DNA from: Entophlyctis helioformis | Taxonomy: Eukaryota; Chytridiomycota; Chytridiomycetes; Chytridiales; Chytriomycetaceae | Assembly: GCA_025526915.1 (NCBI GenBank) | Contig: JAHLKH010000036.1 | Span: 116,916-180,915, forward strand | Reading direction: 5' to 3' | DNA: 64,000 bases | Part shown: piece by piece, positions 43,825 to 64,000 of the stretch | Layout of the letters: each line of letters begins with the position of its first letter | Numbering within the stretch: the first letter of the stretch is position 1 | The notes under the pieces: model-generated | Seen by the model: the letters and a program-made list of their open reading frames with translations, nothing else | What the model was told of the DNA's origin: nothing | Databases searched by the model: none | Translations under genes and position numbers: made by a program

Positions 43825-43857
43825 CACACGGCGTCCAAAAGCCATCGAATGGACCCC
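43825..43857 (+). repeat. left 33-bp direct repeat of the candidate element
   Basis: Core CGTCCAAAAGCC then TCGAATGGACCCC. Differs from the right copy at two positions (G/A and A/G). It includes a copy of the CUE gene's start codon region, which here opens only a very short frame. Confidence 0.85.
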
Positions 43858-43939
43858 TGGTGGAATCGCTCTGATTGGCCGATCCTGGTGGGATCGCTGT
43901 GATTGGTCGATCCTGGTGGGATCGCTGTGATTGGTCGAT
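43856..43939 (+). repeat. three 28-bp tandem repeats at the left end of the element
   Basis: Units 43,856-43,883, 43,884-43,911 and 43,912-43,939. The second and third are identical (CCTGGTGGGATCGCTGTGAT then TGGTCGAT) and the first differs at three positions. They directly follow the left direct repeat, a typical place for transposase or recombinase binding sites. Confidence 0.85.
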
Positions 43940-43976
43940 CTAGAGAGCCCTTGCACGGTGCAGACACTGCGCGATG

Positions 43977-45092
43977 CGAGCACAGCAACAACGCTCCATG
44001 CCAGATCCAGACGCTGCTGCACTTGCCGCCCAACTGCACACAAGCAACAACGAGCCAAACGACAACGACGACAACGCAGGCGACAGCACGGATATGGGAC
44101 AGCACTCGCTTGGTCGAGTCCTTCAGGGGAGACTGCGAGGCTCACCGCTCAAGGTGGCATGCAGCAGGCCGTCGAGCGGCCATCCAGCAGAGCAGCGTGG
44201 TCGTGGCCGTCTGAGAGGCGTGCCCAACAAGGCGGGCGGACAGAAGGCAGGCTGCAGACAGGCAAGCAGGTGCGTTGACTCGCTGTCTGTCCAGGCATGC
44301 TCCATTGCCCGTTGACGACGACGGCACAGCAGTCTGACGGCCGTGTCTGTGTGGGCTTGGCACTGACTGTGTGCATGTCTGATGGGTCCAAACAGCAAGG
44401 GACGTCGGCAAGACGGCTGTGAACAGGGCGATCTGGTTGTTGTTCAAGAGGACAGCGAGAGCATTGGCATCGCAGGACCAAGCTGCCTGGTGCTTTCCGA
44501 CTGCGACAAGGGATGCAGCAGCAGCAGATGAGCAGCCACTGAGACGTGCTCGAAGGGCCAATCCTTGGAGTTGGCTGCAGGAACTGCTTGCTGGACAGCT
44601 GGATTGGCATGCCGACTTGGATGCCAAACTCGGCAGTCGCAGCACACTCGATGAGCGTCACACTCGGTGACACTGATCCAGACGAGATTGGTGAGGAGGA
44701 CGCGAGTTCTGGCAGGCGTGTCTGGCCACATTGCACTTGGTGCGATGGCATCTTGGATGCGATCCACTGAGCAGCACATGGAGTGGCCAGACAGACAGAC
44801 CAAGCACTCTCGATTCATTCAACAACCACAACGACGAGATGATGGCAATGATCCTGACGATCCCAGTCTTGCATGCACTGTGCGTGTTGACAAGGACGAT
44901 CCAGAGCAGAGCGGCGATGCAGGCAGTGCGCCAACGGCCAACCTGTCCATGGACCAGCTGGCCAGTCAGGCAACACCAACTGCATCGCACTGGGTCACAA
45001 TGCAGATGCATATCAGGACGCTTGTTGGATGCAATGGGACATTGACTGAGAAGACGACACTCGGAGAGAGGCCGCTGCAATGCAGCTCATGA
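43977..45092 (+). other. possible extra exons inside the element, function unknown
   Basis: Several plus-strand stretches look coding but are not joined with confidence. One starts MRAQQQRSMPDPDAAALAAQ (43,974 on) and runs to a GTGCGT donor near 44,269. Another is GDLVVVQEDSESIGIAGPSC (about 44,420-44,500). A third is PDRQTKHSRFIQQPQRRDDG, then DPEQSGDAGSAPTANLSMDQ (44,780-44,970). No domain is recognised. They could be an upstream gene of the element or 5' exons of the nuclease gene. The stretch 45,100-45,370 shows no convincing exon. Confidence 0.3.
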
Positions 45093-45373
45093 CACGCAGA
45101 GTGATGCTGCACAGTGCATGTCGAGCTGCGCACTGGGTGGCATCACATCAATGACTGTGCCAGCAACACACGACCGCATCTTGAACGCCTGGCTGTTGGC
45201 TGTGCTCGCTGCTCCCTTGATGGCTGTTGGACAGTGGGCGGCAAGTGCCAGACTGCCCGCTCTCTATCCACTCGCTCTCTGTTTTCATGCAATGAAAGTT
45301 CAACTCCGCCAGACGCTCCGATTCTTTTCTCGTAAACACAGATACAGACACCCCACGCACCAGCAGCACCAGC

Positions 45374-48300
45374 ATGACTTTTGTAGGCCTGCTGAGAGCC
45401 TTCAAGGTACGCCATGCCGTCTGCGACCACACCGGCAAGACTTTTGGCCATGCTGTGCAGCGTGTGCTCCACAGCATGCTGCCACAACAGCCGCCTCTGC
45501 AACAGCCGCCTCTGCAACAGCCGCCGCCGCAACAGCAGACTGCAACAGCTGCAACAACAACAGCTGCAACAACAACAGCCGCAACCACCCAGTTCATCAG
45601 CGGGATGCTGCACGTCGACTTCCTTAGCATCTTTCACCCAGCATTAGTCGCAACAGCCGCCATCAGCCAGCCAGGCTCCAAGGCCGGCTGGAAAGCCATC
45701 ATCCAGCCGGCCTTTGAGCAGTTCATGGCATCCCTTGGCGGCGGCCACACCATCCGCTTCCATGTGGATGGCCAGCTTGGCGACCTGGGCCTCAAGCTGG
45801 TCCACAACAGCCGCACCAACAACATGCTGCATGCGGCAGCCAAGGTCTTGCAGCATGCATTCCAGCGTCAGGAAGGTCGCCACTCTGGTTCACTTTCAAA
45901 GTAAGATCGCCGCTCTATACTGTCTGGTTGCCTTACTGACCATTGTCTGCTGTTGGCCATCAAGGACAGAGAAGCACGCCCTCCACCGCTTCTTCTGTCT
46001 TACAATCGCCGATAAGAAGGCGATCTACGAGGCTCTCTCAGAGCTGGCTGGATCCAAGGAGGCGTGCACAGTCTGCCCATGCGACTATGAGGCAGACGTG
46101 TGCATTGCCTGCCGTGTTCGCGAGTCCAGGTTAGATCGCCTTGCATTCTTCTGCTGTAGTTGATGGCTCACAGTCTGTATTCTGTGACAGTGACCAGCCG
46201 ATCATTGTCATTGCCAATGACTCTGATCTGGTGGCACATTGTGCTGGGCACTGTGCGGTCATTTTGACGCACTTGGAGCATGGGCAGCTTGTGCAGATGC
46301 GATCCTACAACCATGGTGGGCTGGCCACCATGGCATCTGTCTTGGGCGTGCGCGACTTTGCTGGAGCATGCCAGCTGGTCGCTGCACTGTCCAGGACAGA
46401 CTATTTTGGCCGCCCTGGCCACGGTGAGTTGCCGCGCCTGTTTTGTAGTATCTGCCATCACTCACATGCCATTCTTTGTCTTCATGCGTGATTCTGCTTG
46501 CATTCCCTGCCAGGAATCGCCGCCGCGGTCAAGTTTGTCAATGCGCGGTTTGATGCCAAGGCCAAACAGCTCAACATCAAGGCGGCCGACCTCTACGCGA
46601 TCCTCGAGACTCCTAACGAGGCCAAGGCGTTCATGGACGGCGTCAGGGACGCGTACATCGAGGAGCTGGTCAAGAATGGTGATGAGAGCCTCGTGCAGTC
46701 ATTCAAGAACGCATTTGAAGTCTTTGTCAACCGGAATGAGGTTGGGGCCTCTGCTGGTGCAATCACAGCACCGATCGTCGCGAGGTAGGTTTATTCTTGA
46801 AGGATGTCATGGACATGATGCATTGACGCGTTTGAATGCCTTGCACAGATCTGAGCCTCAAGCCGACCACACCAACCACATGGATGTCAACACGACTCCA
46901 TCTGTTGGAATGAAGTATGAATGCATGGAATCTGTGGCGTTTCTGGCAAAACTGACACTGAGTTTCTGTTTCTGATGCTGCGATCTTGTTATTGTGCAGG
47001 TGCTTGATGGATGGATGCTGCTTGAGCCATACTGCGCAGCAGCAGCAACAGGCTGAGAATGGTGTCCAGCTTGTCCACCTGACACGTGGCAGGGTCGAGC
47101 AGCTTGTCAGCAGCACTGTTGGCAGCAGGCGGTTGGATGCTGCCTTCAGTGAGGTGAAGGGTTGCCATGTGGCACTCGACACCATCATCAGGTGCACAGT
47201 CAACCGCCTTGCGAGCAGCTACGATGCTGTCACGCGTCGCGACATCCTGGCAGCCATCTGCAAGCAGCAAGTGCCCAGCTGCTGCAGATTGCCAGCGAGC
47301 AGTTTCTTGGAGCAGATGGCATTTTTAAGCTCCTCCCAGCAGATGAGCCAATCTATCGCGCATTGGTATGTTTGCATGGCTTGAATGCATGCTGTTGCTC
47401 TTGCACCATGCGCATTTACTGATTTTGAATGCGGCTGACTTGATCCATTGCTTCTGGACAGAACGCAGCAATGAGAATGCAGACGCAGCTCGACAAGATT
47501 GCCAATCCGCCATGCGCATCCCACCGGCATACATCCACTCCCAGTAGGTGTTGATTGCATTGAAATGATTCAACAGCATCCACTCACAGATCCATTTGTG
47601 TTGAATGCATAGTACTGGACACAGAGACGCAGAAAGTCGAGTACCACGGCAGGATGACCACGCGAGTTGCACCGCGATCCATTGTCGCTGCTATCCACGA
47701 CAAGGCGTCAGCCTGGCTGTATTTCCTGGAGCACCCCATAGGTCCACATCCAGAAAACGCCAAACCGCCGACACTCATCAATCAGCGCCAAAAGGCCGTC
47801 GCCCTGCTGCAGTCCATCATTGAGCAAAGTGCAGTGCGTCTCGACTTCCACTGACTGCATGTGCATGGAATGATTTGGCGCGATTGCTCACCATCCCACT
47901 CCACAGGTTGGTCCTCCTCCACCGCCGCCCAAGCCACCACGGTTGTCCAACAACATCTTCGCAGCACTGGCATGCTCCAAGACCTTTCCGTTGGCGATCT
48001 TGCCGACACTGAGACGACGGTGAGTTTGGTGCACCATTGGCGATTGTGGCTGTGTTTGGTGCACTTGGAATGGCCGCCTGATGCTGCATCCAACCGTCAC
48101 AGGCGCCATTCCAATTCACGGCAGCCAAGCGGGCTGCGCACACAAAGGAGCGTGCCAAGAAAAAAGAGAAGGCCACACTACAGGAGATCATCAGAGAGAA
48201 CAAGAAGAAGTCAGGCCTGCATGCTCGCAAGGCTGGAACTGTTGGCAAGAAGCAGGCGTACGCGACATATGGCATGTCATGTGCCTTGAATGTGCTTGCT

Positions 48301-49302
48301 GACACGTGTGTCATGCCACAGATGGGTTGCTGGCAGTCGAGTGGCAACTCGTCAGAAGCTTGCAAAGCTCGGCCGCATGATTGCGATGCCAGTCATGACA
48401 CTTGCCGCGGCCACCCATCCCAAAGGACAGCCAAGACCTAAAGGCAATGCACACAGCCGCCCTGAGCAGATTGTCAAAATGGCGGTATGGGGTTTGATCG
48501 GCATGCTGCTCTGTTTGCTTGGCTTTGTGTATGCTGACTTGTGTGGTATGCAGGAGATGCAGTCATGCGATCTCGCAAACACCAAGTTTTTTGGGCCCCA
48601 AACCAAGACACCACTCGCCGAGCAGACACCCAGTTCAATCAGCCACGACACCACCCTCACAGTCTACTATTTCACGGCCGGCTTGTGGCGTGCTGCCCTT
48701 GCCTTGATCGGCGCCATGGTCGCGGATCTGGTCAAGCTGGATGCAGACGCGCCACTGCCTCTGGAGTACTGTGTCCTGGAGGCAAGCCAAGGCAAGCTGA
48801 CGCAGTATTACTATGTCAACCCCGAGGACTTTGATGAGGACGAGAGCGCGACGCTCTTGTCAGGTGGATGCATTCACAAGCAGGGCATCATTGTTTGGCA
48901 CATGTACGGCACCGGCCCGCACAGCAGCGACACAAAATCCCTCGCTATGGCAGCTTGGTGACTCTCGAGAGTGACACGGCTCTCAAGATCTGCGCCTTTG
49001 ATACTGCCAAGATTGCCAAGCAACCCAACATGCATGGCGACCTCGACGAGCAGGAGAGCAGAACGAGCAGGACGAGCAGGACGAGCAGGACGAGCACGAT
49101 GAGCACGAGCTGCCTGTGCAGCCTGACGACCATGCATCCAGGACGAGCATGATGTGCACAATCAGCCGACAGCAGCGCCAGCAGCACCGGCGCTTCATCT
49201 TCAGCCGTCCAACCGCCACCACCACCACCACCACCAGCTGTTCCATCAGCAAATGAGCTGCTTACGGCCCTCACCAGCAGTATATCAGGTGGAGGCGGTG
49301 CT
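45374..49302 (+). CDS. FEN1/XPG-type flap nuclease, element-encoded (5' part of a long unit)
   Basis: ATG 45,374 gives MTFVGLLRAFK, then a 54-nt intron and a Gln-rich insert. N region: SGMLHVDFLSIFHPALV. I region: CPCDYEADVCIACRVRES (about 46,075-46,130), spliced to DQPIIVIANDSDLVAHC, matching the acidic pairs EAD and DSD. H3TH region: GACQLVAALSRTDYFGRPGH, spliced to GIAAAVKFVNARFD. Together these are the metal-binding and DNA-binding parts of FEN1/XPG nucleases. Downstream exons add a basic coil (KERAKKKEKATLQEIIRENK), a conserved-looking block LTVYYFTAGLWRAALALIGA and QYYYVNPEDFDEDES, and an acidic EQD repeat. Frame breaks near 47,285 and 48,945 look like single-base losses. No stop, gap or new start clearly separates it from the Fanzor part, so both may be one protein. 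Confidence 0.65.
49063..49109 (+). repeat. GACGAGCAG repeat in the element coding region
   Basis: Four to five copies of a 9-mer. In one frame it reads DEQ repeats (acidic), in another TSR. It lies at the join between the nuclease part and the Fanzor part. Confidence 0.75.
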
Positions 49303-49308
49303 GTGGAC

Positions 49309-52300
49309 ATGCTGCTGCGCCATCTTGGCTATGTCCTGGCGGACAGCATGATGGTGCAGCCGCAAGCAACAAAGCATGCCATCCACTCCTGGATCGTAAC
49401 AGTCATGCAAATGACGATCCATCGCACCTGGACGCGGAGGGTGCTGCAAACCAACGCAGCCAAGCTGCAGGATGACACGGTACGGATGGACATGATGCAG
49501 ACGTGCACGATGCTGATGGACATGTCACTGATTGATGCAATGCAGCAGGCGGCCACGGCACACAGCGACACGTTCCAGAAAGACGCGCGGCAAGCAGCCA
49601 TGATGGACATGGCACAGATGGACACAATGCGAGCAGCCATGATGGATGTCGACATGATGGACGCGACGCAGCAGACGGTGACAATCCAGGCCGACGCGAT
49701 CCTGTCAGCCGTGGTGCAGGCAGATGCAGAGCTGTCAGCCTTGATGCACACAAGTGCACAGACGGCAGACGCTGTGCACGCGGGCACTATGGAGGCTGTC
49801 TTGCCCTACAGGCTTGATGGCAGCCTTTGCGCGGATGCAAGGCATGACATTTACAGCAATCTGGCCAGGGATGTGTGTGGCATGCTCGCGCGGCACTACA
49901 TCTCTAGCCAGTCTGAGCTGGCCGTCACTGCAGCCCTCAAGCTGATGCCCAGTGCATCCATTGAGGACGTGAGAGTGTGGATTGCAACACTTTTCAAGAC
50001 CGCCAAGGCTGCCAAGGCCGCCAAGGCTGCTGCTGCCAAGGCTGCCAAGGACGCTACACCACCGGCGATCGAGGACGCCACACCGCTGGCCACTTTGGAC
50101 GCTGCTCCTCCCACCTCAAGTCTCAAGCGGGGCCGGTCCACCTCTTCGTCAGCCAACAAGGGCGGCAGGCCCAAGAAGCGACGGGGCAGGAAGGCAGCCA
50201 CCACCAAGGACGCGGCATCCAGCTCTTCCTCGGCCACTGAGGACAGCGGTATTGATACAGTCCCGCAAGAGCTGCACGAGCTCAAGACGCTGGTGCCTGA
50301 TGTGTCTCGGTCAGAGATCGTGATCTTTTACGAGCTGTCCAAGCTTGCTGGCACGACAAACAAGCTGTGCCCGCAAGCAGCCAGCCGCGATCCCTTCATC
50401 CTCATCACCGAGACAACGCTCTTTTGGGCGGTGATGGGGAGTAGTGATGATCGCATCCGTGGCGAGCAAAGTGCTGCTTTGGCATACTTGCGACTGCAGC
50501 TCCTTGCTGTACTCAGTAGGTCGCACTTGTTTATGCCATGTCTACATGATATGATGCTAACACTCCACTTTTATCCAAGACTACCAAAAAGCCAGCTTGG
50601 GCCTCGCATCATCCAACAGGACGATCAAGAAGGCGTTCAGCAATGCAAGGAGCTCTGTATCCTCAACATACTCCTTCCCGGCCTCCGCCCCAAGAAAGGC
50701 CGCTATCAGACGCCAGACGAGGCCGACAAGGAGGTGTTTGAGCAGGTCCAAGCAAATGACGCAGTCATTGCTGATGCGATGCAACTGGCTGAGCACGAGG
50801 GTCTGGTTGGCAAGGAGCGCCAGGAGTTTATAGACGCCGTGATCGATGGTCTTCCTCCTGCAAGTCCAAGCAAACCGACCGCGGTGGGCAGCTTCCGGAC
50901 GGACGGATACAGCATCTTTCAGTTGGCGCTGGACTATCGCACAGACCGTCCAGAGTCGCCTCGCAGTATGTGGCGTGCTTGAATGCTTTGGTGCACACAT
51001 TGGTTCTGACTGCCGCCTTGATCTGCATGCTCCAACATGGCATCTTTAGGCGAGCAGCCCAGCCTTGCTGATGGCATGCCTGATGATGATGATGATGACG
51101 ATGAGGCTGATGAGGCGATGATGGGCATGATGGGCATGATGGGCATGATGGGCATGATCACTTGGATGGCGAATGTTAGTTGCTGTGCCAATCCAGACGC
51201 ACACTTGTTGTCCACACCGACTGACATGCCATCCACAGCCCCGATCCAGCCGACCCATCAGCCACCAAGCCAAAAGCACCCAATCCTGTAAGTCACTGCA
51301 TGCCAACCTCGTGCATTGGTGCACATGCATTGCACATTCCTCACTCATGCCATGGCATGACAGGGCAAGCTCAGCTTCTACGCCTCGCAGCGACTGCACG
51401 ACATTGTCAAAGCCAACAAGTTGTTCACCAACAAGGGCTACCGGTTTGTGCGTATTGTCGGCATTGATTGGGGCGAGCGGTACATGTATGGCGCGTCCAG
51501 CATGCTGGTGGATCTGGCAACCTTCACCTATACCCTCGAGTCCAACTACGTGCTCTCCTCTGGCATGGCACGAGCAGAGCACAGCCTTCAGCGGTGGTAT
51601 GCATGCAATGACTCTGCCACGGGCACTCTTGACCAGATCAACTCACAGTGCCTGCCTCTTGTGCCAGGTTCAACAATCGATATGCCAAGGCTGCGGACGT
51701 CCACGAGGCCATTGCATTCAAGACAGCAAAGCATGCCGATCCAAACGTCAAGCCTGGCGAGAGAGCCTTTTGGGATCTGCGCTGCCATGCGTACTGCACG
51801 CCATTCCTGAATGCACGGGTACGTTTTCTCTGTTTCTGGATGCCCATTGACATGCCGCCATGCTGCTTGATCGCCTGCTGATTGCACTGGATGGCATGGC
51901 ATGGCATGGCATTCCACAGAAGGTCAAGGCCAAGCGGTTCACCATGCGCAGCAGCCGCACATCTGATCGCGGAAACGCTCTTGAGGGCATCATGAAGCTG
52001 GCAGGATCGACCACTGGCAAGCGCGCATCAGCTGCATCTCAAGGCTGCTGTGACGAGCCAACAGAGAAGGACATTCCCGTTGTCTGGGCATTTGGCATTG
52101 ACTTTACAGGTCAAGGTGGCCGGCACGCTGTGTTTGAGAAGTTTCTCATCAGGCATCTGCGGTCGTCTGGATATGCTTATGTGCGTCTGATGCCATGCTA
52201 TCCATCCATCCATCCATCTGTGCACCAACTGACACACACACACACACACACACACACAGATCTACCGCTGCAACGAGAACCTGACCAGCCAGATGTGCCC

Positions 52301-52715
52301 GCAGTGCAAGCAGCGGATCCCATACGAGAACCGCACTAACCTGCGACGCTACGAGTGCATACCATGCACGACCGTCTACCACCGAGACGTGCTTGGAGCC
52401 ACCAACATCGGGATGGTCGCACTGTGGCATCTGCTCTATGGACAACGGCCGCTCTACTTGACGCACACGCCACCTGACAGCAATCCAGCCACACAAGAGT
52501 ACCTTGCAGACATCAAGGCAACTCATCATGACATCCAGTGGCGTGCACAACATCACATCATGCTGCTCGGACACCGCCTGATCAGCCTGTCGTCCAGCAG
52601 CCTCCGTCACCCGATCTGCTTCCCTTCAAGTCGCATGTGGCCTCATGGGATCAGATCATGCTGCCATGTCTGCCAACAACAACACTTTGAATCGGGGACC
52701 TCCCGATCGACCTAA
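49309..52715 (+). CDS. Fanzor/TnpB-like RuvC nuclease with zinc ribbon
   Basis: The N-terminal part (49,309-50,970) is helical: VDMLLRHLGYVLADSMM, then an odd Met/Asp-rich stretch (AAMMDMAQMDTMRAAMMDVD), an Ala/Lys run and an AT-hook-like block GGRPKKRRGRKAATTK. An MMG repeat follows at 51,115-51,160. RuvC-I: RIVGIDWGERYMYGASS, with Asp at 51,466-51,468. RuvC-II: IPVVWAFGIDFTGQGGR (about 52,076-52,123). Zinc ribbon: LTSQMCPQCKQRI then RRYECIPCTTVY. RuvC-III: HRDVLGATNIG, with Asp at 52,385-52,387. Stop TAA 52,713-52,715. This order is the TnpB/Fanzor core, which cuts DNA guided by an RNA from the element's end. The usual RuvC-II Glu is not evident; Fanzors are known to vary there. The start at 49,309 applies only if this is a separate gene. 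One frame break lies near 50,690. Confidence 0.7.
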
Positions 52716-52884
52716 CGGGTCACTTCAATAGAAGGTGAGACCCTTGTTGGATGTGCCTCGCCCGCCTGTCGTCGCATGCTCGTTGCTGACTCGAACCTTC
52801 ATCGTGTGATGTGCGGCTTGCATCCGTCGCCTCTTGGGTCGAATTTAACTCCAAAACGCTTGGTAATTGTATGAATATCGGGCC

Positions 52885-52917
52885 CACACGACGTCCAAAA
52901 GCCGTCGAATGGACCCC
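52885..52917 (+). repeat. right 33-bp direct repeat of the candidate element
   Basis: This copy includes the true ATG of the CUE gene at 52,909 and its leader, so it is probably the original target sequence. The 169 bp between the Fanzor stop and this repeat would be the element's right end, the usual source of the guide RNA; I can see no confident hairpin by eye. Confidence 0.85.
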
Positions 52918-53964
52918 AACGTGCTGATTCTCAGCGGCATCTTCCCCGACGCAGACGACTCGCTCATCGAGTCGGTGCTGGACGCCCACGACGGCGACCT
53001 CTACCAGGTGCGTGGCTTGCCGTGCCAACGTGCGTCTTACAGGCGCCCCTCCGTCCTTCCTTTAACATCCGCGACAGTCCCAGGCGTATCTGGCCAGGCA
53101 CTTTGAAGCCAACGAGACGGCCGCCGGCGCACTACGCCCACGGGAGCTGTCGTTCACTGCTGCGACGATGGCCGCGTCTGCGCAGCTGAACGCCCTGTCT
53201 GCCCAATACCCGTCCATGGACGCCTCGGTGCTGCAGTCGGTTCTGGACGCGCATGACGGCAACATGGAAGACACCCACGCGTATCTGGCCTCCAAGGGCC
53301 ATGTCATGCACTTTCGCAAGATGGTCCGAGGAGACCAGGGGTCTGTCGAGGGGTCTGCCGAGGGGTCGGCTGGCCTGCGAGCGACGGCAGACGATGATGC
53401 CAACGAGGATCTCAACAACCCCTTCAGTGACAGAGCAGCCATCACCGCAGCAGATCGTGTCCGCATCCGTCGCACCTCCTCCGTATGCTGCTGCTGTCAG
53501 CCCCTTGCATGCCACAGAAGCTGCGACTTTTGCGAGCACAGCCAGCATCGCCTCCCGTCCACCTGCATATTCTGCTGCTGCGTCGCGCTCGTCCATGCAC
53601 TCTCGGCCTTCCATCCACTCTTTGTCAGGCTCGGCCAGACATAGTGCTGCATCGTCTGTTCCACCGCCGCTGCCACCGCGACGATCACAGGCATCCGATC
53701 TTTCCCTTCAGCCTCCAGTGCCGACGTGCGGGCTTTGGACGCAAGTGCCGTGAGCTATCGGCTGCTGCCTTGGCACTCAACACGCCTCAAGACGCAGAAC
53801 AGCAGCGATCCGTGGGCTTTGCGGCCCTCGCAGGCCTCGCCATCACAAACATGGCCAGTGCCGCCGCAGCACTATCCGCTGCAGACAATGCAGACTGCCC
53901 CGCGACAACAGCAAAGTGCACACGATCCGCTCCGATCTCTGGCTGGGATAACGGCGGCTGGTAG
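52909..53964 (+). CDS. tandem-CUE-domain ubiquitin-binding protein
   Basis: ATG 52,909: MDPNVLILSGIFPDADDSLI then ESVLDAHDGDLYQ. After an intron (about 53,008-53,078) it continues SQAYLARHFEANE. A second CUE follows: QLNALSAQYPSMDASVLQSV, LDAHDGNMEDTHAYLASKGH. Both have the CUE pattern (FP or YP, then a Leu-rich second helix). The first half ends DLNNPFSD; after a frame change near 53,440 a Pro/Ser/Tyr-rich tail follows (VAPPPYAAAVSPL, SVPPPLPPRRSQASD). The C-terminal frame is unresolved between stops at 53,964 and 54,208. CUE domains bind ubiquitin, often in endocytic or ER-degradation proteins. Its promoter and leader appear to have been displaced by the 9-kb insertion. Confidence 0.7.
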
Positions 53965-54212
53965 TCTGTCCAATACAGTCATGCATTCATTTGCACCTCT
54001 CCGTTTCAGTAACTGCCCACCATCATCCACGTCATGCGAGTCTCAAGGGCAGCGGCCGGCCGATGCGTGCTGCTTGCCCAGACACGCGCGACATGGACGC
54101 GTCGGCCTCTCCCCCGCAACAACAATAACAAAACCAGGCGGACAGACACAAAGACGTTGGCCAGATAGGACGCAGCACATTGACATACACAGCCAAAAAA
54201 CGCAGTAGCAGC

Positions 54213-57200
54213 ATGTCGTCAGAGGCTGCCTCACAGTCGTCCTCTGGCAACCAGGGGCTGGCTCTGCCGCAGCTCCAACAGCAACAGCTGGCTCCTGGCG
54301 CGCAGCTGTCGCTCTTGGACAGTAGCAGCAACAACAGCAGCAACTTGAGCGCTCGCCGCGTGTCTTCCGGCGGCTCTCGCAGGGGCAACAGCGGCCACCT
54401 CAGCCCGGACAGACCCTCGAGCGGAAGGGCTCCATCCCGGTTCCCCGCTCCCGCTCCAAGTCGGGCTCCGTCATCCGCGCCGACCCAACAGACAGCCTCG
54501 TCAGCGACCTGCAGTCGCGTCTTTACACGGTCGCCGGACGCAAGCAAGGCCCGCACTTTGAGCTTGGAAGCAAGCGCAAGTCTGCCGTCGATGGCGGCCC
54601 AGGTGGCGATGCCGCACTTGTGCCACCGGCCGCAGTCGGCGCCGTGTCGACTGGCTCGGTCGCCCAAGTCCCTGGCTCAACCGGCTCGCTCGCGGCCATG
54701 GGCCAGCCTTCCCCATCGTCTCTGGCCCAGCAACAACAGCAGAAACCGCCCCAGCGTCTGGCTCCCATTCGCGGCGGATCTGGCGCGTCCGTCAACACGG
54801 TTCCTCTCGTGCCACAACAGGCAAGCCTTGCTCGCCCTCTCGCCTCTCGCTCTCTCGCCGAATGCCTGCACTCGTCCTGCCACCGCCCGGCTTGAACTAA
54901 CCCTGCCACGCATGCCACGCATGCCACGACCCACCCACCGTGCTCTTGCTCGACAAGCAGTACATCCCAGACACCATCTTCTCCTCCTTCCAGTATGCCA
55001 AAAAGGACAAGGCGCCGCTGCGTCCAGTCATCCTCAAGGCCAAGCGTCCTGTCGTCAATCCGGCTCGTCCAAAGACGCCTGCCTTGCACGACCAGCTCGC
55101 CTCAACCTCGCCAAACTCGATGCGCGATCCGTCTCGCAACCGCCACCTTGCCGGTCATGCGCCAACGACGACCTGTTTGACCAGAGCATCGATGAGCATG
55201 GCAACATCCTCGTCGGATTCGCTCCACCAATCATCCCACCGATTCAGGGTGACCGCGAGCAGAAACGCATCCGCATACAGGACACGTCCATTGACGAGAA
55301 CGAGGACATGCAGGTCGACAACGTTGACGAGCATGAAGATGGCGACGGCGATGCAGTCGATGAGCAGGGCCACATGCACGTCCGTAGTACTGCCCGCGCT
55401 ACTAATCTGAGTGCCGGCACCATGAGCAGCACAAACAGCGGCGGCACTGTCGATAAGAAGGTGTCGATCAACCAGGGAATAGCGCGCAAACCCAGCCAGG
55501 TTGTCCCTGACGTCCATATGGACGACATCAACAGCCTGCTGGACGTGTCGGCCAACGCGGGCAAAGACGGAATCGCGCCAAGCGCCGCAGCCCCAGCCGG
55601 ATTCGCAGCTGTTCTGCCCAAGAGCGACCCACGCAGCCCCTTTAAGTTCCTGTCGTTCATCAAGTCCCACCCGGCGACACACGAGTTTGTGTACATGGTC
55701 CCGATCAAGACATCGCTCAAACGCGGCCAGCCGACATTCAACCCATACAATCTCCAGATTGTCGAGTTTTCGCAGGTCAACACCAAGTCCGCCGACGGCT
55801 ACTACACCATGTCGTCCGAGGGCGTGACGCACTTCAACAACCTTGGCCATGGCGAGTTTACGCCACTGCACCAATGGGTGCGCGAGCACCATCTCTTCCA
55901 CTCGTTGCTCAAGATCCCTTCTTTGCGCGGTACCGCCTGTGGAAGTGCTTCACGCTGTGGAAGAAGACGGTGCTGCACACCAAGATCATGCACGCCAAGA
56001 AACAGCTCGGCAAGAACCTGTTTCTGCTGCATCCGGTGCTGCGCTCGGCACTTCTCGACATCCAGAAACTCAACATGGAGGTGGTGTTCAGCAAACGGCT
56101 CGTGGCAGTCGACACCGACAAGAACTACGAGCTGGGCGAGTTTGTGCGCGACCAGAAGATGTGGGTCGACCAGATCTCCATTGTGGTGCTGCGGACGTGG
56201 GGCGAGCAAGTGCGCGGCATCGTTGAGCGCGCCAGTCTGCTCTGTCTCAAGGAAAAGGGCTTTGATGTCGAGAACCAGATGATCAATAACGCCGCAAAGG
56301 CGGCGAGGCGGCCGGCGAAGAGAAGCCGCAGGCTGCTGGTCTTGCGTCGCCGCCGCCCGCCGCTGGATCGACACAGGCGCTGCTCGCCATGAATCTCAGC
56401 GGTGCTTTGGCGCGCAAGAGTCTGGAAAACATTGCAAACGGCCCCAAGAAGCTCACGTTCACGGAGCAGGCAGCGCGCCGCACCGAATGCCGCCGTCTGC
56501 AGCGGTTTGTCAAGCTGGTCGACTACACCATCATCTATACGCTGCAGCTGCTCGCCATCCAGAGTGTGCAGGACTTGCTGCGGTTCGCGTTCCACGGGTG
56601 CTCTGACGCTGATGTCGTCATTGACAACTCGGGAACAGGCACCATTATTGTGAGCGAGAACGGATACGTGCAGGCGACAGACGGCGCTGGCGCTGCTGGC
56701 GAAAAGTTTGGCGGCGGCAACCGCGGCGGAGCTGCTGCTGCTGCTGCTGCTGCTGCTGCACTTGCCATTACAGCAGGCGATCAAGACGCGGTGTCCCACA
56801 CTGTCGCTGCCGGCCAGAACGCCGTGACAGGCGTGCAGGTCGGCGGCTTGGTTGTCGGCAGCGAGGTGCCGACCAGCCAGCTCTGCGTCTGCGGCTTCGA
56901 CGGATTCTCTGATATCCTGAGCCGCATCATCATGGCGACGATCCCGCAGCTGCAGCTCATCGAGATCGTCGAGGAAGAAGGCCCGATGCTGGACGCAAGC
57001 TTCAGCGGTGGCTCCAAGTCCAAGTCAGGTGATCGTCTTGCGCAGCAGGATGGCAGCGCCGGGTCCATCAATATCATCCTCTCGTCGAAGCTGCCCGTCA
57101 AGGTCGACGACAAATGGAAAGGCGCGGGCGACCGCACCGTGCGCCAGTTTGTGGCGCTGTTCCGCACCGAGCTGCTCGTCCATCAACACGACCAGACCAA

Positions 57201-60200
57201 AAAGTTTTACTTTGCGCCGTCGCTGCAGGACTACCTTGGCGCCATTGACACGATCCTCAAGATTTACATGACGACCGTCGAGCGGTTCCCGACACTGACC
57301 AACTCGATTGCGTTTCTGGACCCGGCGAACCTCGCGGGCGGCGCTTACTCGGCCGTCCGCGGACTGGAGGATTCCGAGTTTGGCGAGGGTCCGCAGATCG
57401 GGTCGATTATCATGGACGGCGGATACTTCCGCGAGTTGTGTGGCCGCATCCGCGGTGTGCTCGTGGCATGTTCACCAATGCCGCCAACTGGGTCAACACG
57501 CTCGAGGACGTGCGCGCCATGTGGATCGAGAATGAGCGGTTCCATGGCCTCGAAGCGCTCCGTGCGTCGGCCGGCGAGACGGCGTACCTGCTTGCAACCA
57601 CATCCGCCGAGAGCGTCGAGGGTGGCGTGGCGGCTATTGCTCAACGCCAAGGCCGAGCGCGACCGTCTGGAAGCTGAGCGCGCTGCTGAAAAGGCCGAGA
57701 AGGCCAAGAAAGGCCACGGCGACATGGAGGTCGATGGCGAGGAACAAGGGGAGGAGGAGGAGGAGGCAGAGGAGGAAGACGCCGGCCCGCCCAAGGAGCA
57801 GACGATTCTCGAGCTTGGATCAAACGTCGCATCCAAGCCAGACGGCACCAAGTACTCGCCCCTTGTCGAGTTTTTCGAGACGGCGCTAGCCAAGTTTGCA
57901 TACCAGAAGCAGACCATGACGGCCATCCCCGTGCGCTCGACGATCAACAACCTGCTCATCGACACCAACAAGCTCAAGAGCGTGCTTGTGCCCAGTCCCG
58001 AGCGCTGCTTCAACGAAGTCGCGCGCATCCTGCCAGGTCTGGCTCGCGACAAGAACGAGCTGTTGCTGACCGAGGTGCAGACATGGGTGCGTGTTCTCAA
58101 CACACAGCCCACAAACGTCGAGGGCTTCGTCGAGTACCTCGGGTGGCTCGAGAAAGTGCGCGACAGCATGCCCGTCGTCGACCAGCTGGAGGACGAGGTC
58201 ACCAAACTCTACGGCCTGCTGGACACGTACAAGATCCAGATCCAGCCGACGGATCTGGCCATGTTCCAGACACTCGGCCCGACGCTGCGCACGCTCAAAG
58301 ACTCTGTCGACGTAGCCATGGATACAAAGGAGGAGTCGATCACGCGGTTCACAATCGACCTGGAGAAGAGCATGTCCGAGCTCATGAGCGAGGTGTCGGA
58401 TATCCGCAACAGAGCGCAGGACCCCATGGTGCTCAACTCCATGTCCAAGAGCGATGTTGTCATCAAGTTCCTCGAGGACCTCCGGCAGCAGCTGGAAAAG
58501 GTCGAGATCCTCAAGAAGCGGTATGAGCAGTGGGGCGAGCTGTTCAAGCACGGCGGAAGCTCAAAGCCGGCTGCGGCGTGGATGCCGCGGCTGCGGCTGT
58601 CGCAGGTGATGGAAAGGCGGCCCCTGCCGGTGCTCCAGCTCCGGCTGCTGGCGCTGCGGCGTTGGCCAAGGGCTCAGAGCTCGAAGAAACCAAGAGCGAG
58701 ATTGAGCTCAAGCGCACGCTGTGGACGAGCCTCAACGAGTGGGAGTCTCTGACCGAGTAAGTGCACGCTTGCCGTTGAGTGTCTGCATGTCTGCATGTCT
58801 GTCTATCTGTCTATCTGCGTGTCGGCCTCGCTGGCGATCAGAGATGACACGGCCATCCGCCCTTGCAATGGATGCAGTGGATGGAAAGCACAGCCCTTTG
58901 ACTCGCTCGTCACGGATGACATCAACACGCGAATCATGTCGTTCCTCAAGATCGTGTACAACCTGGACAAGGGTCTGCCGCCCAACGAAGTCGTTCCCCG
59001 TCTCAAGTCCATGGTGGACGAGTACCGCGTCATGTACCCGACAATCGTCGATCTGCGCAATCCGGCGCTCAAGCAACGCCACTGGGAGAAGATCCAGGAA
59101 GCGATCGGCAAGACGCTCGTCAAGGACGAAACCTTTACGCTCGCTAAACTCATTGAGCTGCGCGTGTTCGAGTTCAAGGACGAGCTGAGCGGCATCTCGA
59201 GCCAGGCAGGATCAGAGGCTGCCCTCGAAGAGATGCTCAGCAAGGTGGTCAAGAACTGGAGCGAGGCCGAGTTTATTGTGACGCCATACCGCGACAAGGA
59301 CGTGTTCATTCTTGGCACGGTCGAGGACATCCAGACGCTGCTCGAAGACTCGCAGTGACCATTGCCACTATCAAGGGATCGCGGTTCATTGGCCCAATCA
59401 AGACCGAGGTCGACCGGTGGGACAAGCAGCTGACGCTCTTCTCCGAGACGCTCGAGGCGTGGCTGACCTGCCAACGCAACTGGCTGTACCTCGAGAGCAT
59501 CTTCTCAGCGCCAGACATCCAGCGGCAGCTGCCAGACGAAGCGCGCATGTTTTCGCAGGTGGACCGGTCCTGGAAAGACGTCATGCGCAAGGTGTCGCGC
59601 AACCCCAACGCCATCAAGTCTGGCACGATGCCGGGCCTGCTCGAGACAATGCAGCAGAACAACGTGCTGCTCGACCAGATCCAAAAGTGTTTGGAGGACT
59701 ACCTCGAGTCCAAGCGTCTGCTTTTCCCGCGGTTCTATTTCCTGTCCAACGACGAGCTGCTGGAGATTCTGTCGCAGACCAAGAACCCGCAGGCCGTGCA
59801 GCCGCATCTGGGCAAATGCTTCGATGCCATCAAGAGCCTCGAGTTCTCGTCCAACGACCCCAAGAGCATCGACATTGTCGCCATGCTGAGTCCCGAGGGC
59901 GAGCGCGTGCCGTTCCTCAAGACCATCAAAGCGCGTGGCAACGTGGAGGGCTGGCTCGGCAATGTCGAGGAAGCCATGGTGGCCGTGCTGCGCCGGCTGG
60001 TCAAGTCTGCGATCGCCGACTTTGAAGACGCCAAGCGGTCTGAATGGGTGCGCGAGCACGTCGGCCAAGTCGTTGTGACTGGCAATCAGGTCATCTGGTC
60101 GCGCGACGTGACAGACTCGCTCAAGTCGAGCGAGCCCGGCAAAGCGCTCGTGGCACTCAAACAGAAATGCATCTCGAATCTGTCCGGCGTAGCCATGCTT

Positions 60201-63200
60201 GTGCGCGGCGAGCTGACGCGCATCCAGCGTGCGATTCTCGGTGCGCTCATCACGATTGATGTGCACAACCGCGACATTGTCGCGGGTCTGATTGCGGCCA
60301 AGGTCACCGGTGCAGGCGACTTCGAGTGGACCAAGCAGCAGCGGTACTATTGGGACGTTGACTCGGACACCTGCCATGTCAAGATGTCCACATCCGTGTT
60401 CTCGTACGGATTCGAGTACCTCGGCTGCAGTCCGCGCCTGGTGATCACGCCGCTCACGGACCGATGTTACCTGACGCTCACGGGTGCGATGCAGCTCAAC
60501 CTTGGTGGCTCGCCAGTGGGACCCGCCGGCACAGGCAAAACCGAGACGGTCAAGGACCTTGCCAAAGCAATGGCACGGCAGTGTGTGGTGTTCAACTGCT
60601 CCGACGGCATGGACTACAAGATGATGGGCAAGATGTTTGCAGGTCTGGCCCAATCCGGCGCATGGTGCTGTTTCGACGAGTTCAACCGCATCGACATCGA
60701 AGTGCTGTCCGTGATTGCACAGCAGCTGCTCACGATCAAGAACGCCAAGGACATGAAGGCAACCAAGTTCATGTTCGAGGGTCGCGAGATCCGGCTCATC
60801 GAGACGTGTGCCGCGTTCATCACCATGAATCCCGGCTATGCCGGCCGCACCGAGCTGCCCGACAACCTCAAGGCGCTCTTCCGTCCCATTGCGATGATGA
60901 TCCCAGACTACGGCCTCATTGCCGAGATCATGCTCTTCTCGGAGGGTTTCGAGAATGCAAAGCCGCTGTCGGGCAAGGTGGTCAACCTGTACAAACTCTG
61001 CTCCGAGCAGCTGTCACAGCAGGACCACTACGACTTTGGCATGCGTGCCGTCAAGTCGGTGCTGATCATGGCCGGTGCTCTCAAGCGGTCCAACCCGGAG
61101 CTCAGCGAGGACGTGGTGCTGATCCGGTCTCTGCGCGACTCGAACCTGCCCAAGTTCCTCGCAGAGGACATTGGCCTGTTCCGCGGTATCCTGTCAGACC
61201 TGTTCCCAGGCGTCATTGTGCCAGACCGCGACTTTGGCACGCTCGTGGGTGCGGTCAAGGACGTCATGCTTGAGCGCAACCTCGAGATTGTCGACGGGTT
61301 TGTCAGCCGTGTGTGCCAGCTCTCCGAGACCATGCACATCCGCCACGGTGTGATGCTTGTTGGGCCGACTGGCGGTGGCAAGACAACGTGCTACGAGGTG
61401 CTGCAAGAGGCATCTAACCGTCTGCGCGAGCAAAACTACGGCGACTTCCAGCGCGTCAAGACATGGGTTCTCAATCCAAAGGTGTGTTCATGTTGACACC
61501 CCGCTCGTGATTCGCGTGTTTCGCCTGCTGACATTGTCAATGCTTCCTCTTCCGGTCATGTGTGGCAACTGCAAGTGCGTGGCCATGACCGAGCTGTACG
61601 GCGAGTTCAACTTGGCCACGATGGAGTGGAAGGACGGTCTCATTGGATGCATCTTCCGAGCGCAAGTCTCTGAAAACACGCCAGACGAAAAGTGGACCGT
61701 CTGCGACGGACCCGTCGATGCGCTCTGGATCGAGAACATGAACACCGTGCTCGACGACAACAAGCTGCTCACGCTCATCAACGGCGAGCGCATCAAGATG
61801 AATCCGACCATGCACATGCTCTTCGAGGTGGCCGATCTCGCCGTTGCATCGCCAGCAACCGTGTCTCGATGTGGCATGGTGTACATGGACCCCGCGACTC
61901 TCGGCTGGCGTGCATATGTGCGCATGTGGCTGCGCAAGCTGCCCGCCACCGTCAATGACGAAATCAAGGCGCACATCTGGGCCTGTTTGATGGTCTCGTC
62001 GATCCTGGCCTGCGCTATGTGCGGCGCCACGGCAAGGAGTTTGTAAAGTCTGTCGACCTCAACCTTGTGACGAGTCTGTGCAAGATGCTGCGCACCTATG
62101 TCGGCCGCAAAGAGCTCGAGGGCAAGATCCAGATTGCCGACCTCAAGGCACTCTACTCCAATCTCTTCTTGTTCTGCTACGTGTGGTCGCTTGGCGGCAA
62201 CCTCGCAGACGGCTACCAGGACGGCTTCGACACATTCATGCGCGACATGCTCGAAAACTCTCCCGTTGGCGAGCTGACGATGCCGACGGCCAACACCGTG
62301 TTTGGCTACTTTGTCGACCTCAAGACCCGCAGCTTTGTGCAGTGGGACGACATCGTGCCCAACTTCAAGTACTCGGCAGACGTGCCGTACTTTGAGATGA
62401 TGGTGCCGACCACCGACACGGTCAAGTACGCCTACCTCCTCGAGATGCTCCTCAACAACAGCTTCCCGGTGCTGTTCACGGGTAACACGGGTGTGGGCAA
62501 GTCGGTGATTGTGCAGGACCTGCTCAACCGCACCAGCAAGGCGTCCAAGTCTCTCCAGGTAACGCTCAACTTCTCGGCACAGACCAACAGCGCGCAGACG
62601 CAGCAGATCATGGAGCTCAAGCTCGAAAAGAAGAGGAAGAACATCTCGGGTGCGCCGACCGGATTCAACAAGATTGTGCTGTTTGTGGACGACCTCAACA
62701 TGCCCAAACTCGACACGTATGGATCGCAGCCGCCCATCGAGCTGCTGCGCCAGTACATTGACTTTGGCGGATTCTACGACCGCGAGAAGCTCACGTGGAA
62801 AGTCATCCAGGACATTGACCTTGTCGCTGCGTGTGCACCTCCAGGCGGCGGCCGCAACAACGTCACGGCTCGCCTGCTGCGGCACTTTAACATGCTCAAC
62901 ATCCCTGCGCCGAGCGAGCAGTCGCTGTCAAAGATCTTCAAATCCATCGTCGAAGGATTCCTCAAGCCGTTCTCGGCCGAGATCAAGTCGTCCTGCGAAG
63001 CCATTGTCAACTCGGCAATTGAGATCTACCACCGCATGTGCACAGAGCTGCTGCCCACACCGGCCAAATCGCACTACACATTCAACTTGCGCGATCTGTC
63101 CAAGGTCATCCAGGGCATTCTGCAGATCCGCCCGGGTGTCATCACGACAAAGACCGAGCTCGCACGTCTCTTCTGCCACGAGTCGTCGCGAATCTTCCAC

Positions 63201-64000
63201 GACCGCCTCATCGATGACACGGACCGGCAGTACTATAACCGGCTGCTCTCGGAGCTGGTTGAAAAGAGCTTCAGCATCCAGATCCCCAAGGAGACGTTCT
63301 CGCAGTCGCCCATCATGTTTGGCGACTTTTCCAAGCGTGGCGTCCCGGCCGAAGACCGTATCTACATCGAGATGGCAGACATGAAAGCCATGACAACCCT
63401 GCTGGAAGAGTATCTGGAAGAGTACAACGTCACGATGAACAAGGACGTGCGGCTCATCTTCTTCATGGACGCCAAACAGCACATCACACGCATTTCGCGC
63501 ATTATCCGACAGCCGCGCGGCAATGCACTGCTGATCGGTGTGGGCGGCACGGGCAAACAGTCGCTCACACGGCTGGCGTGCCATATTTCGGACTATCAGT
63601 GCATCCAGGTCGAGCTCACGCGCACGTACGGCGAAGAAGAGTGGCGCGAAGACCTCAAGAAGCTGTACCGGCTCGCGGGTGTGGATGGCAAGAACACCGT
63701 CTTCCTGCTGTCGGACACGCAGATCAAAAAGGAGACGTTCCTCGAGGACATCAACTCGATTCTCAACTCGGGCGAGGTGCCCAACCTGTTCGAGACGGAC
63801 GAGCGCGAGAAGATTCTGGGCGACCTGCGGCCCATGGCACGCGAGAAGGGGCTGGGCGAAGATCGCGATTCGGTGTACCAACTGTTCATCAACCGTGTGC
63901 GTGACAACCTGCATATCGTCTTTGGCACGAGCCCTGTGGGCGATACGTTCCGCACACGGTGCCGCATGTTCCCGTCGCTCGTCAACTGCTGCACCATCGA
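54213..64000 (+). CDS. axonemal dynein heavy chain, DNAH6-like inner arm; 3' end outside window
   Basis: ATG 54,213; a Ser/Gln-rich head, then VLLLDKQYIPDTIFSSFQYA. Tail: NPYNLQIVEFSQVNTK, FARYRLWKCFTLWKKTVLHT, LGEFVRDQKMWVDQISIVVL. Linker from about 58,900: RFIGPIKTEVDRWDKQLTLF, WLTCQRNWLYLESIFSAPDI, SRNPNAIKSGTMPGLLETMQ. AAA1 P-loop GPAGTGKTETVKDLAKA (about 60,520) with CCFDEFNRIDIEVLSVIAQQ; AAA2 GPTGGGKTTCYEVL (about 61,364); AAA3 LFTGNTGVGKSVIVQDLL (about 62,473); AAA4 IGVGGTGKQSLTRLACHISD (about 63,535). The stalk, AAA5-6 and C terminus lie beyond base 64,000. An intron is seen at about 61,481-61,570. About ten single-base frame breaks are scattered through this otherwise intact motor. 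It powers flagellar beating, so the organism has motile cells. The DNAH6 assignment rests on the tail and is moderate. Confidence 0.88.

Follow-up and report, generated by a model that had tools for sequence, protein, structure and literature searches.

Fanzor-type nucleases in terminal inverted repeat (TIR) elements without a transposase are already known, as in Spu-1 of the chytrid Spizellomyces punctatus, which encodes SpuFz1 and whose inverted repeats reportedly could not be matched to any transposase (PMC3627910, PMC10432273). We compare such systems with a block on the forward strand of a 64,000-nucleotide stretch of the Entophlyctis helioformis genome (contig JAHLKH010000036.1, positions 116,916 to 180,915; hereafter the window), which holds a copy of a TIR-bounded family that likewise has a Fanzor-type product and no recognised transposase. 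The target-adjacent motif of SpuFz1, CATA, also resembles the CARA-like start of the target-site duplications (TSDs) in the present family. Spu-1 differs in being about 2.1 kb long, with a single 633-aa open reading frame, 33-bp TIRs and putative TA TSDs, and what is available of its descriptions mentions no XPG-like domain. The Chlamydomonas Fanzor1 elements CRe-1, CRe-2 and CRe-3 resemble the present family in that some copies are cut short at the 5' side while the 3' end is intact, and in that their TSDs vary in length and can be long, but they have Helitron-type ends, and their copies reaching the consensus 5' end lack TSDs; Bao and Jurka tie the truncation and the variable TSDs to Helitron-type one-ended transposition (PMC3627910). 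Fanzor1 also occurs inside Helitron, Mariner, IS4-like, Sola and MuDr DNA transposons, some with fixed TSDs, and an IS4-type element has an 8-bp TSD, as does the present family (PMC3627910). Unlike in those transposons, the Fanzor-like region here probably shares a protein with an XPG-like domain, and the element fits no assignable superfamily. AcademX transposons carry an XPG nuclease and a DDE transposase, and are not known to carry a Fanzor. As a DNA transposon lineage linked to a nuclease, AcademX is likewise comparable, with TSDs that differ from the 8 bp found here (3-4 bp in AcademX, 9-10 bp in AcademH; PMC10045372). Within the open-licence literature searched, we found no report of an XPG/FEN-Fanzor fusion; the accessible text of one preprint contains the words 'Fanzor flap endonuclease homologs' with no detail. 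A search with our 1947-aa protein model found no fused relative among the 7998 candidates scored.

On balance, we favour reading the block as one copy, truncated on the left and frameshifted, of an abundant TIR family that encodes one protein of about 1950 aa, with an XPG/FEN-like end, a middle region and a Fanzor-like end, and that would be copied from its right end while relying on a transposase that acts in trans or lies hidden in the middle region.

The family is a high-copy TIR DNA transposon of E. helioformis. Within the assembly (29.6 Mb in 482 contigs), the first 343 bases after the left copy of a 33-bp direct repeat that flanks the block, and the last 285 bases before its right copy, each match at least 40 places, and the flanks are unlike between copies. 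The left end reads GGCCCGGTTCTCATACCATTACC (up to three substitutions) in 28 of the 37 left ends read; next come 28-bp tandem repeats, of which between one and five can be recognised. The TIRs are imperfect, with 19 of 23 positions matching (GGCCCGG...). A 25-base pattern for the right end has 166 matches in the genome and a pattern for the left end has 86, two of which are right ends read backwards, each with up to three mismatches allowed and none found for the reversed-pattern controls. Right ends thus outnumber left ends 2:1, which can do no more than hint at left truncation, because the two patterns are unequal in length and subfamilies may vary at the left. From the listed ends (82 left and 88 right) we obtained 44 pairs on the same contig, mostly 7.2-9.8 kb apart, and three pairs about 1 kb apart are internally deleted forms keeping both ends, two of them with one right flank in common. 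With terminal inverted repeats and a fixed TSD at dispersed sites, the family qualifies as a TIR DNA transposon; a Helitron or LINE was rejected, as the Pfam matches of four protein pieces include neither a reverse transcriptase nor Rep and intact-ended copies have TIRs and 8-bp TSDs. Copies of 14-16 kb were considered as an autonomous, transposase-bearing form, and the one that we opened (C297, L092, 15.9 kb) holds a nested chromodomain Ty3/gypsy element, which is missing from the C67 copy with identical flanks. Two copies ending TTTGAATGTCGGGCC (C280 and C125; L045, L046) both have the flank ATTTGCCGGCGG after the right end, so that this subfamily may in truth extend beyond that point, or may sit inside another repeat. 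No viral relatives were found in the scans made.

Both flanks were read in 25 copies. A perfect 8-bp TSD lies directly at the ends of seven (C66, C12, C151, C5c, C24m, C102 and C395), a TSD matching at seven of eight positions was found in five (C23, C39, C35, C67 and C297, with both flanks in common between C67 and C297), and C219 has a perfect 11-bp repeat. Four copies have no standard left TIR: C168, with a variant left end and, by eye, a 7/8 TSD, and the truncated copies C36 (the window copy), C172 and C24p, whose flanking repeats measure 33 bp (31 matching), 15 bp (15) and 20 bp (19), respectively. We next considered 39 right flanks, a hand-compiled list that includes truncated copies and counts the flanks of duplicated loci once, except for two with nine bases in common. 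Relative to the base composition of the host DNA (20% A), A is enriched at TSD position 2 (26/39, p 2e-10) and position 4 (27/39, p 3e-11); position 3 is A or G in 31 flanks, and C at position 1 (16/39, p 0.11) is not significant. Thus, the family has a fixed short TSD of 8 bp and a C-A-R-A-like target motif, which suggests that its insertion step is selective for the target. The copy in the window is an aberrant insertion, truncated on the left, and its 33-bp repeat is best read as an overlong TSD, as are the 15- and 20-bp repeats of the two other left-truncated copies.

A preliminary description of the window had taken positions 43825 to 52917 as a mobile insert bracketed by 33-bp direct repeats. 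The repeat is real: its two copies agree at 31 of 33 positions, and its pattern has two matches inside the window against none expected (100 shuffles). The coordinates were nearly right, except that the element proper is 43858-52884 and the repeats are flanking target DNA; similarity to the C60 and C122 copies starts at 43858, where the left flanks diverge. Copies scattered over the genome, each with its own flanks and TSD, bear out a mobile element bounded by duplicated target, although 33 bp is not the normal TSD of the family and belongs to a left-truncated copy. The gene that starts in the right repeat encodes a CUE domain (Pfam PF02845, 3.8e-9). Five matches to the pattern of this site in the genome include no empty site, and the three outside the window all have the element immediately upstream. 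The right flank (52885-64000, at least 11 kb with the CUE gene and a dynein heavy chain gene) is present in contigs C36, C60, C122 and C408, which agree there at about 98-99%; where a left flank exists, three different ones occur, and three contigs stop at the same base. This arm is thus duplicated, and the assembly is probably collapsed here.

Turning to the coding capacity, 19 phase-compatible exons (Table 1) yield an open frame of 1947 aa, with the XPG/FEN-like end first and the TnpB/Fanzor-type RuvC-zinc-RuvC end last. The frame is a composite of four pieces (A-D) from three copies, joined without a phase break and with no stops. Exons 1-6 of the window copy give an open XPG-like reading, and in C395 and C198 the frame runs through exons 6 to 19 at GT-AG borders. 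Exon junctions 12/13 (P0122), 16/17 and 17/18 (P0121) agree with NCBI-annotated E. helioformis fragments. At seven places in its coding exons the window copy lacks one base that is present in all six other aligned copies, and these frameshifts are either decay or assembly errors. We compared the frame with that of the divergent copy C60i, in which it is kept although the XPG and middle segments are only about 30-60% identical in amino acids (nine of 11 segments were compared). The ratio of nonsynonymous to synonymous divergence (dN/dS) was 0.30 in exon 6, 0.54 in exon 10, 0.39 in exon 12a, 0.33 in exon 13 and 0.33 in the RuvC-I exon, showing purifying selection. An AlphaFold model of the middle region (49237-50523) was uninformative (mean confidence, pLDDT, 41.7) and was left unused. 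Because the frame is open, two linking exons are constrained and three junctions match annotated fragments, a fusion is the simplest model. The two nucleases, which the preliminary description had seen as a partner pair, would thus probably be the ends of one polypeptide from one gene, with 19 exons in one frame and linking exons 6 and 10 under constraint. The same description had noted no recognised transposase; this holds for the four protein pieces, where the only such Pfam match is an insignificant one to PF12835 (Integrase_1, 0.24).

Table 1. Features of the transposon copy, its predicted exons and its borders in the window.
Feature	Position	Strand	Remark
Left 33-bp direct-repeat copy	43825..43857	+	host DNA, overlong TSD; 31/33 with 52885-52917
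Transposon copy	43858..52884	+	left-truncated, left TIR missing
Three tandem 28-bp repeats, left end	43856..43939	+	copy number differs between elements
Exon 1, XPG-like N-terminal motifs (HVD, HVDG)	45374..45900	+	
Exon 2, XPG-I motif CDYEADVCIA	45965..46129	+	
Exon 3, XPG-I motif ANDSDL and TDYF aspartate	46191..46423	+	
Exon 4, presumed helix-three-turn-helix (H3TH)-like region (GIAAAVKF)	46514..46784	+	H3TH reading by eye
Exons 5-11, link between nuclease regions	46849..48484	+	frame open in C395
Exons 5-8	46849-46914, 47000-47365, 47462-47543, 47613-47833	+	
Exons 9-11	47907-48019, 48103-48257, 48322-48484	+	
Exon 12, large middle region without family assignment	48554..50515	+	620 aa open in C198
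Exons 13-15, start of Fanzor region	50580-50965, 51050-51174, 51239-51287	+	exon 15 by eye
Exon 16, RuvC-I (GIDWG)	51364..51596	+	
Exon 17	51668..51818	+	
Exon 18, RuvC-II region	51920..52180	+	3' border by eye
Exon 19: E-alt, C4 zinc ribbon, RuvC-III (HRD), stop	52260..52690	+	PF07282
Invariant block, stop codon into 3' end, candidate start of guide-RNA scaffold	52686..52725	+	
Right TIR GGTAATTGTATGAATATCGGGCC	52862..52884	+	166 genome places, up to 3 mismatches
Right 33-bp direct-repeat copy	52885..52917	+	carries start codon of CUE-domain gene at 52909

The assignment of the C-terminal end as a TnpB/Fanzor-type nuclease domain is secure at the level of sequence. A spliced 539-aa piece from C395 matches Pfam PF07282 (TNB) at 4.4e-10, scoring 40 bits where the cut-off is 26.3, in line with the RuvC-zinc ribbon-RuvC order first noticed from the letters. 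The Fanzor pattern D-X(125,275)-[TS][TS]XX-C4-X(5,50)-RD (Bao and Jurka 2013, PMC3627910) is found here as D216, T405-S406, C409/C412/C429/C432 and R438-D439, with 188 and 5 residues between (counted by hand). Yoon et al. 2023 (PMC10711439) place E-alt, a glutamate of RuvC2, six residues ahead of the first CxxC; here it corresponds to E402, with six residues between it and C409. That paper also gives the RuvC1 motif DPG as 'near exclusively' in Fanzors and treats proteins with E-alt and D-hydrophobic-G as a separate clade (PMC10711439). Protein searches with the Fanzor piece returned five E. helioformis fragments and one distant 379-aa metagenome protein (P0126); this sole match beyond E. helioformis also combines D-hydrophobic-G with E-alt. 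Elsewhere in the genome (the 3' part of L114, on C2 near 292.5 kb), what looks by eye like a 3' Fanzor fragment of this family directly adjoins the host FEN1 gene, which is itself 100% identical over the query to an E. helioformis protein.

The N-terminal domain is probably, though not proven to be, of XPG/FEN type, a moderate assignment. The metal-binding acids of XPG/FEN nucleases follow the order D, DG, [DE]xE, DxD and DY/DF. The XPG region of the window has at least 229 exon matches in the genome, the listed ones down to 43% identity; from five divergent loci fetched we used three, and aligned them with the window copy, C198 and C60i. HVD/LVD, [VI]DG, [DEA]xEADVCIA, DxD and [TN]D[YF] persist in this alignment in the FEN order, and their FEN1 counterparts are visible in an alignment of FEN1 orthologues. 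The acids are kept, except for one in L119, in all five variants that have the N-terminal part (the sixth member lacks exon 1), and the variants keeping them are 38-73% identical to the window copy. The best family match is to XPG_I_2 proteins (PF12813, cut-off 24.2 bits), here within a transposon protein, and this is the only Pfam family matched by most members: five of the six aligned, C198 included, match it. The values are 0.025 for a 507-aa window piece and 0.011 for its core, 0.02 for C60i, 0.036 for C67, 0.002 for L116 and 4e-5 (23.7 bits) for L120.

Another way to view the family is through the arrangement of its two nuclease regions across copies. Among the matches listed, to which all counts in this comparison refer, there are 83 XPG loci and 117 Fanzor loci. 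A Fanzor locus lies 2-14.5 kb downstream on the same strand at 45 of the 83 XPG loci, upstream at none, and on the opposite strand at one. The 44 TIR pairs hold both regions in at least 20 cases, only Fanzor in 15, only XPG in 2 and neither in 7; these contents are lower bounds, C60i having both yet being counted as Fanzor only. A Fanzor exon lies inward within 16 kb at 43 of 84 left ends and outward at three. Measured in 500-base windows against the window copy, identity stays at 93-98% across the XPG exons in C60m and C395. In C122, C172, C198 and C67 it drops to 75-79% between about 45330 and 46450, and outside this interval it is 91-99%. The XPG exons thus come as two cassettes, about 77% identical to each other (synonymous divergence, dS, 0.76; dN/dS 0.31 over 230 codons). 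A translocation breakpoint inside the element in C122 was considered and rejected, since the 86% stretch is mostly divergent XPG cassette. Between C395/C198 and C60i, synonymous differences per site are 0.47-0.82 in the linking, middle and exon 13 segments measured; the RuvC-I value is 0.39, and the final two exons give 0.07-0.11. Because of the cassette divergence and these low values in the last exons, we conclude that modules are exchanged between copies and that the right end is common to old lineages. The drop in the last two exons also suggests homogenisation of the right end.

The 3' end could act as the scaffold of a guide RNA. Across 26 right ends, with C60i and other divergent copies included, 122 of 218 columns are invariant, among them runs of 12 and 28 columns. 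Searches for tRNA or Rfam RNA found none in the stretches searched. On the reverse strand, a stretch at 52788-52797 that is invariant in the 26 right ends reads GGTTCGAGTC, which we take to resemble an RNA polymerase III B box; no tRNA was found there.

Several results weigh against parts of the reading that we favour and give its alternatives their footing. It is scarcely credible that the direct repeat is a chance match or an assembly join and the block no mobile insert: the shared stopping point of the three contigs would speak for it, but shuffling gave no such repeat, and the dispersed copies have different flanks and TSDs of their own. The survey of insertion sites is nonetheless uneven, in that eight of the 25 pairs with a left TIR (C219 aside) match at six of eight positions or worse, or only when shifted (C69 6/8; C2 and C5a 6/8 only shifted; C52 and C5b 5/8; C198 4/8; C239 3/8; C49 3/8 shifted), and the long-TSD pattern consists of three copies, a fourth left-truncated copy (C122) having no clear repeat. 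At the N-terminus, XPG_I_2 stays under the Pfam cut-off in every copy, L119 has no match and an unrelated domain of unknown function outscores it in C60i (0.0081); hhalign against 18 FEN1 orthologues was not significant (probability 0.07 and 0.15%), and Protein Data Bank searches by sequence or profile gave no FEN/XPG chain. The FEN1/XPG assignment draws on the ordered acid motifs and on the best XPG_I_2 match, just under the cut-off, and the FEN1 profile comparison lends it no support. Another fold with similar acid motifs would suit these profile results and the acid replaced in L119, but we regard it as improbable given XPG_I_2 in five of six members and all FEN motifs in order. At the other end, the RuvC-I motif reads DWG in both C395 and C60i, and because DPG is thus replaced we call this end Fanzor-like. 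The 3' end shows hardly any covariation, with a two-sided change in one of 56 pairs, its folding as a whole does not outdo that of shuffled sequences (z -0.29), and the conservation is partly confounded, as part of it may be homogenisation.

The fusion itself rests on frame and selection, and none of the copies followed through is intact end to end, with frame breaks in exon 12 of C395 and exon 13 of C198. Exon 8 has no match in C60i, and exons 5, 7, 9 and 11 lie outside that comparison. Two adjacent genes within one element would accord with this gap, with the short annotated E. helioformis proteins matching the Fanzor piece (272-332 aa) and with the 1947-aa query having matched no protein of 1070 aa or more. 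We nevertheless consider two genes quite unlikely, since the open frame is phase-compatible across seven linking exons, two of the three tested are constrained in the divergent copy, and broken copies would be expected to give short annotated models. An element that is self-sufficient, its XPG-middle-Fanzor protein itself cutting the target under RNA guidance, resolving flaps and copying in a right-end-primed manner without a DDE transposase, is also unlikely. When TIRs come with fixed 8-bp TSDs, a DDE-type transposase is usually responsible. The internally deleted two-ended copies of about 1 kb are, moreover, as expected if the machinery acts in trans, and half of the left ends have no Fanzor exon among the matches listed. 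Self-sufficiency is favoured by the missing transposase in the four pieces, by the right-end surplus, by left truncation with long TSDs, by the mosaic copies and by the inward position of Fanzor exons at left ends, from which no other gene set is seen to own the TIRs; a similar 5'-truncated, variable-TSD pattern is described for CRe-1 to 3 (PMC3627910). Its most elaborate form, with the two-nuclease protein as a transposition machine in which a guide RNA from the 3' end directs the cut, the XPG end resolves flaps, copying runs right end first and swappable cassettes tune the reaction, we think rather doubtful.

Under the favoured fusion model, intact-ended members, which insert at C-A-R-A-like sites and make 8-bp TSDs, would have their ends joined by a transposase that acts in trans or is hidden in the middle region. 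The 3' end would yield a guide RNA, the Fanzor end would cut DNA matching the guide, and the XPG end would trim the 5' flaps that cutting and repair synthesis leave behind. The preliminary description had likewise suggested that the flap nuclease might process the cut ends, or else that it might replace a transposase in homing-like copying. The part of the fusion protein would thus be target cleavage and repair copying, by which the element would be retained and spread in a homing-like way. The left-truncated copies with their long TSDs, together with the surplus and the sharing of right ends, fits copying that starts at the right end, and with the module mosaicism the truncation is compatible with some form of copying; if the left end were joined too soon, the new copy would lack its left part and have an overlong TSD, as in the window. 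We consider it most likely that the insertion chemistry comes from such a transposase, with the fusion serving cleavage and repair copying, and possible but less likely that the fusion does everything.

The significance of the family is that a Fanzor combined with a flap nuclease could show how elements move without a known transposase. Thanks to the TSDs, the target motif and the truncation products, the way the element is copied can be tested both on sequences and in vitro. If the self-sufficient reading were true, it would amount to transposition that needs neither a DDE transposase nor a recombinase nor an HUH enzyme. Genome editors seeking control over the ends of RNA-guided cuts would also take an interest in a natural fusion with a flap nuclease.

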